Source: Bacteroidota bacterium (GTDB taxonomy: Bacteria; Bacteroidota; Bacteroidia; Flavobacteriales; BACL11). Taken from it: DNA of 64,000 nucleotides. Numbering within the stretch: the first letter of the stretch is position 1; each line of letters opens with the position of its first letter. The stretch spans positions 1 to 64,000 of the forward strand of contig JAOOLD010000007.1 in NCBI GenBank assembly GCA_028408365.1, written 5' to 3'. A program made the translations under genes and the position numbers. The notes under the pieces were generated by a model. That model saw only the letters and a list, made by a program, of their open reading frames with translations. It was not told the origin of the DNA and did no database searches. Shown one piece after another: positions 43,324 through 48,413 of the stretch.

Positions 43324-43331
43324 TAAATTTG
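43324..43331 (+). promoter_or_regulatory. -7 promoter element for the MbnP/MbnH operon
   Basis: TAAATTTG is a perfect TAnnTTTG match 4 bases before the ATG at 43336. A TTG at 43305-43307 gives a 16-base spacer, just below the usual range. Confidence 0.5.
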
Positions 43332-43335
43332 TAAT

Positions 43336-44079
43336 ATGAAAAAACTATGCTCATTACCGCTAATCATCTTTTTTATATCTTGTGAAAAAAATGACAGTTC
43401 AACAAATTTAACATTAAACTTTAATCACACTGTTAACATTTCTAGTACACTAGAACTTGATAGCACTTCATATTTAAACTCATCATCTCAATCTTACACT
43501 GTCAATAGATTATGGTACCTAATTAGTGATTTGAAACTTCAGAATTCAAAGGGAGAATTAGCTGATATTGAAGACATTCATTTTGTTGACGTTAATAATA
43601 GAGAAACAATGGTTATTGATTATGGAACAATTGATGAAGGAATTTATAATAAGATCTCATTTACATTTGGATTAGATAGCTTAAAAAATGTTGACAACCA
43701 ATATGTAAACGATTCATGGCACAGTGACATGTTTTGGCCAAATAACCCAATGATGGGATCTGGCGGATATCATTACATGAAATTAGAAGGTACATACGAT
43801 ACAATAACTCAATTTTATAATTGTCACACTGGACCTACTATGGGATCTGATTATTCTTTTAATGTCGAGCTTCCCATTGATTTTAATACGAGTGATACTG
43901 AAGGAATTATGCTAAATATAATTATGAACGTCAATAACTGGTTTGAAAATCCTAACAATTTTGTTTTATCGAACAATGGGATAATGATGAACATGGGTGC
44001 ACAAATGCAACTCAAACAAAATGGGCAAGCCGATGTATTTAGCTCTAGCGTAACATATTCAGGAAATCTAGGAAGATAA
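43336..44079 (+). CDS. MbnP-family lipoprotein (metal-binding-type partner of MbnH)
   Basis: This 247-residue lipoprotein has its lipobox Cys at 16 (FFISCEKND). The family pattern is clear: LTLNFNHTVN, then VNRLWYLISDLKL with Trp60, NKISFTFGLD, WHSDMFWPNNPMMGSGGYHYMKLEG (128-152), and NCHTGPTMG. In methanotrophs MbnP and related CorA/MopE bind copper, and MbnH converts a Trp of MbnP to kynurenine. The next gene, 4 bases on, is the MbnH-type partner, which supports the call. Whether Trp60 is the modified residue is not known. Confidence 0.85.
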   Translation: MKKLCSLPLIIFFISCEKNDSSTNLTLNFNHTVNISSTLELDSTSYLNSSSQSYTVNRLWYLISDLKLQNSKGELADIEDIHFVDVNNRETMVIDYGTIDEGIYNKISFTFGLDSLKNVDNQYVNDSWHSDMFWPNNPMMGSGGYHYMKLEGTYDTITQFYNCHTGPTMGSDYSFNVELPIDFNTSDTEGIMLNIIMNVNNWFENPNNFVLSNNGIMMNMGAQMQLKQNGQADVFSSSVTYSGNLGR

Positions 44080-44083
44080 AATT

Positions 44084-45172
44084 TTGAGAAGTCTTAATTA
44101 TAGTTTATTAATTATAATTTTTGCTTTTTTATCTTGCAAAAAAGATAAGAACATAATAAATGGTTGCACTGACTCAAGTGCTGCAAACTATAATCCGTAT
44201 GCCATCTTAGATGATGGTTCTTGTTTGCAATATTTAACTACCCCCTATTTAATCAACATTCCAAATGGGTTCCCATTGATGCAAATTCCTTCTGACAATC
44301 CAATGACTATCGAGGGTGTTGAGCTAGGTAAAAAATTATTTAATGACCCTATTCTAAGTGCTGACAATAGTATTTCTTGTGCAACTTGTCACATACAGTC
44401 AAACTCCTTCTCTCAACAAAGTCAATACAGCGTTGGAATTGACGGTATTGCTGGCTTCAGAAATGCATCTGCCTTGATTAATTTAGGATGGAACTCAAGC
44501 TTTAACTGGGATGGCTCAGCAAGTAGTTTAGAGGAACAGGCTTTTGAACCAGTTACGAACCCTATTGAAATGCATAATGAATGGGGAAATGTAGAAACTG
44601 AACTAAATCAAAATGAACAATACAAGGATCTTTTTAAAAAAGCTTTCAACATTGACCACATTGACTCTGTTCATGTTGTCAAAGCGATTGCTCAGTTTGA
44701 AAGATCGTTAGTCTCTTACAATAGTAAATATGACAAGTTTATAAGACAAGAAGTTCAACTAACTCCATCTGAGCTCAACGGATTATCCATTTTTAATTCT
44801 GAGAAAGGAGATTGCTTCCACTGCCATGGGACAAATCTTTTCACTAACGATAATTTTCATAACAACGGATTAGACTCTGAGCCATTTAGCGATTTAGGTT
44901 TAGCGATTGTTTCTGGAAATAGTGAAGATGCTGGTAAATTCAGAACACCCACATTAAGAAATGTTGAACTTACAGCACCATATATGCATGATGGTAGGTT
45001 TTCTACTCTAGAGGAGGTGATTGACCATTACAATAGTGGAGGTCATTACTCCTCCACTGTTGATCCCTTGATGAAAAAATTAGGTGTTGGACTGCTTTTG
45101 ACTAACCAAGAAAAAGCTGATTTAATTGCATTTTTAAAAACATTAACTGATGATGATTATGTTAATGAATGA
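44084..45172 (+). CDS. MbnH-type dihaem cytochrome c peroxidase-like protein
   Basis: This 362-residue lipoprotein (FLSCKKDK) starts with TTG. A Cys-bounded module typical of Bacteroidota follows (GCTDSSAANYNPYAILDDGSC), then a dihaem MauG/CcpA fold. Haem motifs are CATCH (about residue 106) and CFHCH (about 246), with TPTLRNVELTAPYMHDGRF near the end. MbnH uses a bis-Fe(IV) state to oxidise a Trp in its partner MbnP, encoded just upstream. Its 3' end overlaps the following metalloprotease gene. Confidence 0.88.
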   Translation: MRSLNYSLLIIIFAFLSCKKDKNIINGCTDSSAANYNPYAILDDGSCLQYLTTPYLINIPNGFPLMQIPSDNPMTIEGVELGKKLFNDPILSADNSISCATCHIQSNSFSQQSQYSVGIDGIAGFRNASALINLGWNSSFNWDGSASSLEEQAFEPVTNPIEMHNEWGNVETELNQNEQYKDLFKKAFNIDHIDSVHVVKAIAQFERSLVSYNSKYDKFIRQEVQLTPSELNGLSIFNSEKGDCFHCHGTNLFTNDNFHNNGLDSEPFSDLGLAIVSGNSEDAGKFRTPTLRNVELTAPYMHDGRFSTLEEVIDHYNSGGHYSSTVDPLMKKLGVGLLLTNQEKADLIAFLKTLTDDDYVNE

Positions 45173-47033
45173 AAGGCTGATCAAGATAGGCTTTCTTTTC
45201 TTCTTGTTATTATTTTCAAAAATCAACATGTCTCAAAATTTTGAAAAATGCGGAAGTATGTTGCTTTTACAAAAAGCCATTAAAGAAAATAAGCTTTTAG
45301 AAAGTAAAAGAAATTTGATAAATCAAAAAGTTTACACTGAATCTATGAACAATGTTACTATACCTGTAGTTGTTCATGTTGTATATAGTAATGCTCAAAA
45401 TAATATTTCTGATAGCAGGATATTTTCTCAGATTCAAGTATTAAACGAAGATTTTAGAAGAACAAATTCAGATGCCATTAATACCCCTTCTCAATTCCAA
45501 TCAGTCGTAGCTGACATGAGTATTAATTTTTGTTTAGCAAGTAAAGACCCAGACGGAAATCCAACAAATGGAATTATTAGAAAATTGACCAATAAATCTG
45601 GTTTCTCTTTATATGACACAACAATTCATTACAATGTAACAGGAGGAAGCGATGCTTGGGACTCTGACAAATATTTAAACATTTGGGTTTGTAACATTTA
45701 CGGTGGCATACTTGGATGGGCTCAGTTTCCATACGCTGGAACGAAAGAAACAGATGGAGTTGTAATTAATCATGATAATTTTGGTGTAAATTTAAATTAT
45801 TCAAGTGCATATAATCTTGGCAGGACAACAACACACGAAGTTGGTCATTGGCTAAATCTTTTTCATGTTTGGGGAGATAACACTTGTGGAGATGATTTTG
45901 TTTTTGATACACCAACACAAGAGCAAGCCAACTATGGTTGTAAGGCGCATCCTTTTATCAGTTGTCAAAATAGTGGAGATATGTTTATGAACTTTATGGA
46001 TTACAGTGATGATGACTGTATGAATTTATTTACAAACGGTCAAAAATCTAGAGCATGGAACTGTTTGATAAATTACAGAGACAAAATATTCATCTCTGAT
46101 GGATGTGATACCTCAAACTTTTCAATGAGCTGTGATGCATCAATTGAATCGATAATTCATCCATCAAATAATGATAGTATTTGTGATCAAAAAATTTACC
46201 CAGCAATTGTAATAAAAAATAATAGTAGTGATCCGATGTATACATTGGATATAAATTACAGATTAAATGGTCAACAGTATACTTATCAATCATGGAGTGG
46301 AAATTTATCTCAAAACATGAGTGACACAGTATACCTAGCTAGTCTAAAAAATGTGCAAAACAATAATATTTTGGAGATTGAAGTTTCACTACCCAACAAT
46401 AAGATTGATTTAGATTTTTCAAATAACTTCTCATCCACCAATTATTACTCTAACATTGGAAGAACTGTTAACATCCAAATTCAAACTGACAATTATGCTC
46501 AGGAAAATCAATGGTATTTATATAAGGAAGTTAATAATTCAATCATTGACTCAGGGGTTGTACTAAGTAATAACACACTATATGAGAGAGAATATTGCTT
46601 AACGCAAGGTTGTTACCACTTTGTGATTTTTGACAGCGGAAACGATGGTATATGTTGTAATTTTGGTAATGGTTATTTTAATGCATTTTTTGGTGATTCA
46701 CTTATTGGAAGTGGTGGTAGTTTTGCTAGCATTGACTCACTGAGCTTTTGCATATCAAATGAAAATCAATCAACTAATTTAAATAACTTACATGACTCAG
46801 TAATAGAGATATATCCAAACCCTGCTTCAGATAATCTATTTTTTAAATTTAAATCTCAAATAACAATTAATAATCCTATTTTTGTAGAGATTTATGACGT
46901 AGCTGGTAAGAAAATAATTAGCAAAAAAATTACTAGCAATATCTTAAATATAAGTAGTATAGAAAATGGTGTTTATGTTTTGTTTATGAGCATAGACTCA
47001 ACCAAATACACTAAAAAGTTTGTAAAACAATAA
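45165..47033 (+). CDS. Secreted M43 (pappalysin-like) metalloprotease with T9SS type A tail
   Basis: This protein of about 622 residues has a signal peptide, a conserved pre-region (VTIPVVVHVVYSN) and the zinc site THEVGHWLNLFHVWG (HExxHxxGxxH). A Met-turn follows in MNFMDYSDDDCMNLFTNGQ. The C-terminus is a type A sorting tail (VIEIYPNPASDNLFFKF ... TKKFVKQ). It should be exported by T9SS and act outside the cell. The track start at 45150 overlaps MbnH; several Met codons in a row make the exact start uncertain, and I use the last (45165). It is co-directional with mbnP/mbnH. Confidence 0.85.
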   Translation: MNERLIKIGFLFFLLLFSKINMSQNFEKCGSMLLLQKAIKENKLLESKRNLINQKVYTESMNNVTIPVVVHVVYSNAQNNISDSRIFSQIQVLNEDFRRTNSDAINTPSQFQSVVADMSINFCLASKDPDGNPTNGIIRKLTNKSGFSLYDTTIHYNVTGGSDAWDSDKYLNIWVCNIYGGILGWAQFPYAGTKETDGVVINHDNFGVNLNYSSAYNLGRTTTHEVGHWLNLFHVWGDNTCGDDFVFDTPTQEQANYGCKAHPFISCQNSGDMFMNFMDYSDDDCMNLFTNGQKSRAWNCLINYRDKIFISDGCDTSNFSMSCDASIESIIHPSNNDSICDQKIYPAIVIKNNSSDPMYTLDINYRLNGQQYTYQSWSGNLSQNMSDTVYLASLKNVQNNNILEIEVSLPNNKIDLDFSNNFSSTNYYSNIGRTVNIQIQTDNYAQENQWYLYKEVNNSIIDSGVVLSNNTLYEREYCLTQGCYHFVIFDSGNDGICCNFGNGYFNAFFGDSLIGSGGSFASIDSLSFCISNENQSTNLNNLHDSVIEIYPNPASDNLFFKFKSQITINNPIFVEIYDVAGKKIISKKITSNILNISSIENGVYVLFMSIDSTKYTKKFVKQ

Positions 47034-48413
47034 ATGAGAGTAACCAAACTAATAGCAATTTTGATATTTTTTTCGCACATTTTATGTGCTCAAAACATTA
47101 AAAAATGTATGGCAACCAAGCTCGTCGAATACGAACTAAGTATTAATAAAGATTATGAACAAGCCAGAGCTAATCTACTTTCAGATACTCGTAATTTAAA
47201 TAGTAGTTCAAGTGAAAGGGGTTCTGCTACAATAATACCAGTTGTTGTTCATGTGGTGCACAGAAATACTCACTCCTCAGTAGGTTCCGGTACAAATATC
47301 TCTAACGCTCAAATTGAAGATCAAATAAGAATTTTAAACGAAGACTATTCAAAAACCAATTCTGAATTTCCAAATCCTCCCAGAAGTACTTTCAAGAACA
47401 TTGCAGAAAATGCGAACTTACAGTTCTGCCTTGCTTCGGAAGATCCTCAAGGCAATCCAACTACTGGAATAACAAGAACATCAACCACTAGGACAAACTT
47501 TGATGCGGATGATAATAATGATGCTAACGCAATGAAGTTAAATTCTACCGGTGGTAAAAACGGTTGGGATCCATTCAATTATTTAAACATTTGGGTATGT
47601 GATTTAACTAACTCAAGTGGCGGTGGAATGACGCTTGGATATGCTTATCTTCCAGGACTACTTGCTGGCTTTGGATCTAACGCTTGGAAAGACGGTTTAG
47701 TTGTTGATTACAGATATTTTGGAACAACAGGAGTTGCTGCCCCTAGCAGCGATGGTAGAACTGCTACTCACGAAATCGGACATTATCTAGGCTTAAATCA
47801 TACTTTTTGTGAAACTGGTACCGGTAGTTGTTGTGATAATGATAATAACATTGGATGGCCACTTTCTTTTACAAGTGTCGACGATACTCCACCGACAAAC
47901 GGTGTATATTGGAGTTTTGTTAATGCATCATACCCAAGCACAAGCTCAGGATCTTACAATTCATGTAATGACTTTGCATACGGATTTAATTCAGACATGC
48001 CAGATATGCATGAAAATTTCATGTCATATGCTCTAAACACTTGGATGTTTTCTAACGGGCAGGTTGATGTGATGAATAGTGTACTAAATAGATCTGAAAC
48101 ACAAGCAGGAAGATCAAGTTTAAAAAATGGTAGTGTTCCCGTCAATTGCAGTACATTAGGCATTCAAGAAAATATAATTAATGATTTTACAATTTATCCT
48201 AACCCCGCAAATGGAAGGATAAAAATTAGCTCAAAAAATAACCTACATATTAATACGATTAAAATCTTTAGTATAGTTGGTAAAAATGTACACTATATTA
48301 ATAATTACAGATCTGAAATAGAACTTGACTTAACACACTTGACCTCAGGTGTTTATTTTGTAGATATTTCTACTGATGAAGGAACTATTTCAAAAAGGTT
48401 AATAATCAATTAG
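47034..48413 (+). CDS. Second secreted M43 metalloprotease with T9SS type A tail
   Basis: This 459-residue protein has a signal peptide (FFSHILCAQ), the ATIIPVVVHVVHRN pre-region and the zinc motif TATHEIGHYLGLNHTFC. The Met-turn region is HENFMSYALNTWMFSNGQ. The tail FTIYPNPANGRIKISS ... SKRLIIN is a type A sorting domain. It is a paralogue of the preceding gene but lacks its extra C-terminal beta region. It begins directly after that gene's stop, and its own stop overlaps rluD by 8 bases on the opposite strand. Confidence 0.88.
   Translation: MRVTKLIAILIFFSHILCAQNIKKCMATKLVEYELSINKDYEQARANLLSDTRNLNSSSSERGSATIIPVVVHVVHRNTHSSVGSGTNISNAQIEDQIRILNEDYSKTNSEFPNPPRSTFKNIAENANLQFCLASEDPQGNPTTGITRTSTTRTNFDADDNNDANAMKLNSTGGKNGWDPFNYLNIWVCDLTNSSGGGMTLGYAYLPGLLAGFGSNAWKDGLVVDYRYFGTTGVAAPSSDGRTATHEIGHYLGLNHTFCETGTGSCCDNDNNIGWPLSFTSVDDTPPTNGVYWSFVNASYPSTSSGSYNSCNDFAYGFNSDMPDMHENFMSYALNTWMFSNGQVDVMNSVLNRSETQAGRSSLKNGSVPVNCSTLGIQENIINDFTIYPNPANGRIKISSKNNLHINTIKIFSIVGKNVHYINNYRSEIELDLTHLTSGVYFVDISTDEGTISKRLIIN

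Follow-up and report, generated by a model that had tools for sequence, protein, structure and literature searches.

A divergent MbnP/MbnH pair shares an inherited locus with two secreted M43 proteases in a family of Bacteroidota

Copper-related surface proteins that carry a tryptophan-derived kynurenine and are accompanied by a di-haem protein have been described for gammaproteobacterial methanotrophs as MopE/SACCP and CorA/CorB (PMC3912023, PMC3621798), and MbnP was reported to show no marked sequence similarity to either MopE or CorA (PMC3621798). The closest described relatives of the genes analyzed here are MbnP and MbnH of Methylosinus trichosporium OB3b; a literature search retrieved nothing on an MbnP/MbnH pair (hereafter MbnPH) in Bacteroidota. 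The first Trp of the WxW motif of MbnP is reportedly the residue that is converted to kynurenine, a finding ascribed to Manesis et al. 2021. Here we describe a locus encoding MbnP, an MbnH-like enzyme and two M43 metalloproteases (M43A and M43B) with tails for the type IX secretion system (T9SS). It lies within the first 64,000 nucleotides (the window) of contig JAOOLD010000007.1 of a marine member of the Flavobacteriales, whose genome assembly (GCA_028408365.1) comprises 1.47 Mb in 54 contigs and is 86% complete. A previous interpretation made from these letters only, referred to here as the sequence-only reading, had raised the possibility that the four genes form a surface route for copper acquisition. 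Our analysis assigns the pair to a distinct branch of Bacteroidota MbnPH and indicates that its link to the proteases is one of inherited gene order, with no evidence of a pathway.

By motif, tree and neighbourhood the MbnPH systems of Bacteroidota can now be split into two kinds, which we name class I and class II. Our survey yielded about 110 MbnP sequences, a sample biased to relatives of the window MbnP and to high-scoring PF20243 matches; 36 of them have kept WxW (class I), and most others show the signature GYH[YF]M without a canonical WxW (class II). In the order, class I genes are mostly found with a small Cys-rich protein containing a C-x-G-K-C motif upstream and a CDxCGC protein downstream (both called by regular expression), and two other WxW loci have a gene of the HMA-domain type nearby; none of these three kinds of neighbour was present beside GYHYM-type MbnPs in the sample. 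Class II pairs are located next to FG-GAP T9SS proteins in Bacteroidales and Crocinitomicaceae, choice-of-anchor B proteins and SBBP propellers in Flavobacteriaceae, and M43 proteases in the family of the window. The MbnHs of these pairs group in a single clade (100/97), which includes the L061 clade whose MbnPs have lost both signatures, and MbnP class and MbnH clade agree. For the class II branch, a blanket annotation of MbnPs as WxW copper proteins would be incorrect. The two flanking proteins of the Flavobacteriales WxW cassette (L132-L159) measure approximately 130 aa (CxGKC) and 310 aa (CDxCGC), and neither has a Pfam or NCBIfam match; at L165:8037-12428 and L170:4202-8690, genes for an HMA-domain protein and for a large receptor-like product lie downstream of MbnPH. 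Tandem or adjacent MbnPH pairs, or additional MbnH genes, within one locus were noted at L076:4113-9080, L063:6169-9053 and L149:5717-11284, the first of which holds a WxW MbnP as well as a GYHxM MbnP.

The window MbnP belongs to class II. It matches PF20243 with 99 bits (cut-off 27), and the top match of its AlphaFold2 model (pLDDT 91.7) in Foldseek is the M. trichosporium MbnP structure 7L6G (probability 1.00, TM-score 0.60), whose six chains occupy ranks one to six; the fold of the model is thus that of MbnP. There is no match at a threshold of 0.001 to the copper-binding equivalog TIGR04052 (MbnP_like_WxW), and at the WxW position the protein reads MFWPN, the second Trp being absent. Searches of PDB sequences with the window MbnP, a broad profile and a small mixed set returned no relevant match; a class I MbnP profile retrieved 7L6G. 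Profile-profile alignment pairs M-x-W-S-W...GYIF...H-x-G of class I with M-F-W134-P-N...GGYHYM...H164-T-G of the window protein, and the class I profile places the same stretch on M-A-W-N-W...H-V-G of 7L6G. As both alignments agree, Trp134 is the equivalent of the first WxW Trp. In our alignments this position is Trp in 32 of 32 family sequences, 11 of 11 of the FG-GAP group and 36 of 36 class I sequences, and in one of 22 Flavobacteriaceae, the other 21 having Val. The position of His164 is His in every aligned sequence. His146 and Met148, both within GYHYM, are invariant in the family and the FG-GAP group (Flavobacteriaceae: His 22/22, Met 21/22), and Trp202 is found in all 65 sequences of these three groups; none of the three is among the common class I residues. 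Met217 is a further residue gained and conserved in class II. The sequence-only reading had drawn attention to a Trp in VNRLWYLISDLKL, which does exist (Trp60) but is Trp in just 3 of the 32 family sequences, with Arg or Lys in most others; we thus rejected it as oxidation target, and the residue corresponding to WxW is Trp134. This leaves Trp134, Trp202, His146 and His164 as residues that can be tested directly for oxidation or metal binding.

The second gene starts 4 nt behind mbnP and encodes two CxxCH motifs. TIGR04039 is its best NCBIfam match, yet the score of 287 bits is below the curated cut-off of 363, which is passed by none of the 52 genomes of the GTDB family of the window, and the protein is therefore filed as MbnH-like. 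Its closest relative in the PDB is the di-haem enzyme 6e1c (E 4e-58), which we take to be MbnH of M. trichosporium OB3b. The presence of an MbnPH pair, as the sequence-only reading had it, is thereby confirmed. Near the N-terminus of the enzyme, residues 28-50 (window 44165-44235) form a GCTD..A.NYNP.A..DDGSC module, which also occurs in some MbnP relatives (L034, L112).

Both subsequent genes encode M43 peptidases (PF05572, 57 and 44 bits for M43A and M43B, cut-off 23) with the HExxHxxxxxH motif, and both products have the C-terminal sorting domain of T9SS type A cargo (PF18962). The two secreted proteases were thus correctly recognized before, as were the positions of the four open reading frames on the + strand and their spacing, which from mbnP through M43B amounts to +4, -23 and 0 nt; the overlap between mbnH and M43A shrinks to about -8 nt if M43A starts at ATG 45165. 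Gaps of 10 nt or less account for 29 of the 40 same-strand gaps in the window, and because tight spacing is so general, it provides little evidence for an operon by itself. Likewise, the Bacteroidota-type -7 motif (TAnnTTTG) TAAATTTG upstream of mbnP is weak promoter evidence, as 56 such motifs are found on the + strand of the window. Overlaps and short gaps leave no space for internal promoters between the genes (Table 1), and a layout of this kind makes it likely that all four are co-transcribed as one compact run. A profile scan of the genome found 4 M43 matches and 45 matches to T9SS tails; with so few M43 genes, and with the same order recurring in 29 genomes from 13 genera, the grouping of the four genes exceeds chance. 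In G034 / isolate SP47 (L178, L033), M43A looks interrupted, with a short open reading frame and a second fragment, which might represent a frameshift or an assembly error.

Table 1. Positions of the features discussed, in window coordinates.
Feature	Position	Strand	Basis
TAAATTTG, promoter-like -7 motif of the Bacteroidota type (TAnnTTTG), upstream of mbnP	43324..43331	+	Pattern scan; weak evidence
Class II MbnP, predicted lipoprotein (Cys16)	43336..44079	+	PF20243 99 bits
Trp60 of MbnP, quoted by the sequence-only reading	43513..43515	+	Trp in 3/32 family members
Trp134 of MbnP, candidate for oxidation, aligns with first WxW Trp	43735..43737	+	Class I/class II profile alignment
His146-Tyr147-Met148 of MbnP, within GYHYM	43771..43779	+	Alignment
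His164 of MbnP, aligns with HVG histidine of OB3b MbnP	43825..43827	+	7L6G and profile alignments
Trp202 of MbnP, class II-specific conserved Trp	43939..43941	+	Alignment
MbnH-like di-haem enzyme, predicted lipoprotein	44084..45172	+	TIGR04039 287 bits; PF03150
Haem motif 1, CATCH	44378..44392	+	Sequence
Haem motif 2, CFHCH	44813..44827	+	Sequence
M43A, secreted metalloprotease with T9SS tail	45150..47033	+	PF05572 57 bits, PF18962; locus-specific clade
M43A zinc motif, HEVGHWLNLFH	45834..45866	+	Sequence
M43A T9SS type A tail	46809..47024	+	PF18962 48 bits
M43B, secreted metalloprotease with T9SS tail	47034..48413	+	PF05572 44 bits, PF18962 58 bits; locus-specific clade
M43B zinc motif, HEIGHYLGLNH	47769..47801	+	Sequence
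M43B T9SS type A tail	48192..48407	+	PF18962 63 bits

The order of these genes is widely conserved in the family, for which we surveyed 52 genomes of 15 genera and read the neighbourhoods in 29 genomes. MbnH is present in 14 of the 15 genera and in all 15 high-quality genomes, and in the 29 genomes read, representing 13 of the 14 MbnH-bearing genera, MbnP-MbnH is directly followed by M43; the order is also seen in one sister clade and in named database records. M43B was found in all such loci with a sufficiently long contig, and M43A intervenes in about 12. The sequence-only reading had suggested a survey of MbnPH neighbourhoods for M43 genes, and the expected co-occurrence indeed holds within the family; the sister clade apart, no M43 gene adjoins class II MbnPH in the rest of the order in our sample. 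Moreover, the flanking genes in the window and its relatives (panB, rluA and priA on one side; rluD, a T9SS gene, a PASTA gene and ddl on the other) are as conserved as the MbnPH-M43 order itself, so that conservation of order alone is weak functional evidence.

In most relatives, M43B is followed by a gene for a radical SAM enzyme whose best match is MqnE (TIGR03700, 432 bits, cut-off 434.6). M43B abuts or overlaps this gene there (0 to -4 nt), whereas the gap between MbnH and M43 varies from -47 to +99 nt. In genus g5 (L113, L119, L126) MbnPH has an FG-GAP gene on one side and, on the other, a gene recognized by eye as malate-dehydrogenase-like, while M43A and M43B (with MqnE) are still together elsewhere. 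The split in g5 and the different spacing on the two sides indicate that the proteases are tied more tightly to the menaquinone gene than to MbnPH. MqnE is absent after M43B in the window's own genus, where M43B meets rluD (junction at window 48406-48413), and we found no full match to MqnC/MqnE in this genus; the futalosine route to menaquinone may thus have been lost from it. Two further arrangements were observed: a lone second MbnH without MbnP between M43A and M43B in G009 (L113:8776-14292), and an MbnH fragment convergent with a T9SS-tailed multicopper oxidase in G010 (L118:2-2200).

Phylogenetic analysis points to a single origin of this arrangement. The window's family and the clade of L061, L066 and L069 come out as sisters (100/97) inside the class II clade (100/97) of the 106-row MbnH tree. 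The sister clade has the order MbnP-MbnH-M43A, then a trypsin-like T9SS protease and MqnE, with AddAB-like genes upstream instead of priA; in L061, L066 and L085 the position between M43A and MqnE is thus occupied by the trypsin-like protease and not by M43B. In the M43 tree, M43A of the family and of the sister clade form one clade (99) and M43B another (99), both separate from the remaining M43s in these genomes. As judged from the sister relationship of the MbnH clades and the one M43A clade, the MbnPH-M43A linkage arose once and was then passed on by vertical descent. Independent recruitment of M43 genes in the two clades would have favoured a functional link; we did not observe it among the genomes sampled, and we rejected it because the M43A tree shows common descent. 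A recent tandem duplication giving rise to M43A and M43B was also rejected; in the M43 tree they sit in different clades at opposite sides.

Taken together, we favour, with a probability of roughly 0.58, an interpretation in which a divergent class II MbnPH matures a site in a surface MbnP and the M43 proteases are independent genes of the secretome that share the locus by inheritance. MbnP and MbnH, both with a Cys after a hydrophobic leader, would be exported as surface lipoproteins, where MbnH, a MauG-like di-haem enzyme, would oxidise Trp134 of MbnP, and the oxidised residue would complete a metal site, probably for Cu(I), that includes His164. M43A and M43B would leave the cell by the T9SS and serve a function of their own on the cell surface, and the shared locus would reflect an ancestral gene order inherited vertically in a streamlined genome. 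The role of the proteases is thus most likely a separate one, with co-expression, and not part of one copper pathway with MbnPH. The invariance of Trp134 in the family, the FG-GAP group and class I is what would be expected if this residue were still in use. Several observations weigh against this interpretation. The linkage has been kept in 13 of 14 genera although the MbnPs are only about 40% identical, and selection for co-expression may be behind it; this is not decisive, as the order of priA, rluD and ddl is equally conserved. The second WxW Trp is gone (Asn136 or a gap), which might prevent formation of kynurenine. Finally, Flavobacteriaceae keep MbnH though Trp134 is Val, and their class II MbnH may act on a different target, perhaps Trp202 or a T9SS partner.

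The last two observations bear on other possible roles of the pair. Loss of the canonical WxW, gain of an invariant HxM, Met217 and Trp202, and the missing TIGR04052 match would also fit a system without any kynurenine site, with MbnH as a surface peroxidase and MbnP as a scaffold, or with a metal site of His146, Met148 and Met217 made without Trp oxidation; this is unlikely given that Trp134 is as invariant as expected if used and that MbnP class tracks MbnH clade. Alternatively, class II MbnH might modify Trp or Tyr residues of its T9SS surface neighbours (propellers, or M43 in this locus), MbnP being an adaptor or second substrate. In every well-sampled class II clade the run indeed includes a T9SS or surface protein, and Flavobacteriaceae retained MbnH after losing Trp134, but the neighbours have unrelated folds with no common modified motif shown and T9SS tails are common in the genome, which renders such a role quite unlikely. 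It is tentatively conceivable, though we would rather doubt it, that class II as a whole is a separate surface system of Bacteroidota where a MauG-like enzyme would construct a new type of metal or redox site (Trp134/Trp202, GYHYM, Met217) in a surface lipoprotein working with T9SS partners, and not a methanobactin-type copper import. The copper route of the sequence-only reading, with extracellular copper proteins broken down by the proteases and their copper taken up by MbnP, is very improbable. It would be compatible with a locus common to 13 genera and a sister clade, with the T9SS tails of the proteases and with an MbnP fold that retains Trp134 and His164. However, no copper-linked gene (TonB receptor, metal-binding proteins) adjoins the class II branch in the window or its relatives, the CxGKC/CDxCGC cassette accompanies only WxW MbnPs, the M43 genes remain with mqnE where MbnPH is elsewhere, and other class II pairs lack an adjacent M43; in addition, we know of no copper specificity among M43 peptidases. 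Beyond adjacency, for which descent accounts, the route has nothing positive in its favour.

Compared with known systems, the window pair most closely resembles MbnP/MbnH of M. trichosporium OB3b (7L6G, 6E1C), with which it shares the MbnP fold, adjacent genes, and the first WxW Trp and the HxG histidine of MbnP; 6E1C is the closest solved relative of its MbnH. In contrast to OB3b, its MbnP lacks the second WxW Trp and has gained GYHYM and Trp202, the Bacteroidota proteins are predicted lipoproteins, and neither methanobactin genes nor a TonB receptor were seen among the genes read beside the pair. The MopE and CorA systems are alike in principle, and we do not claim the window pair as a member. 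The class I cassette of Bacteroidota (CxGKC - MbnP - MbnH - CDxCGC) contains the same two families in the same order but keeps WxW and Cys-rich neighbours, whereas class II has neither. With other T9SS-tailed M43 peptidases, M43A and M43B have in common PF05572, HExxHxxxxxH and the PF18962 tail; they differ in that they represent two locus-specific orthologue groups, separate from the genome's remaining M43s.

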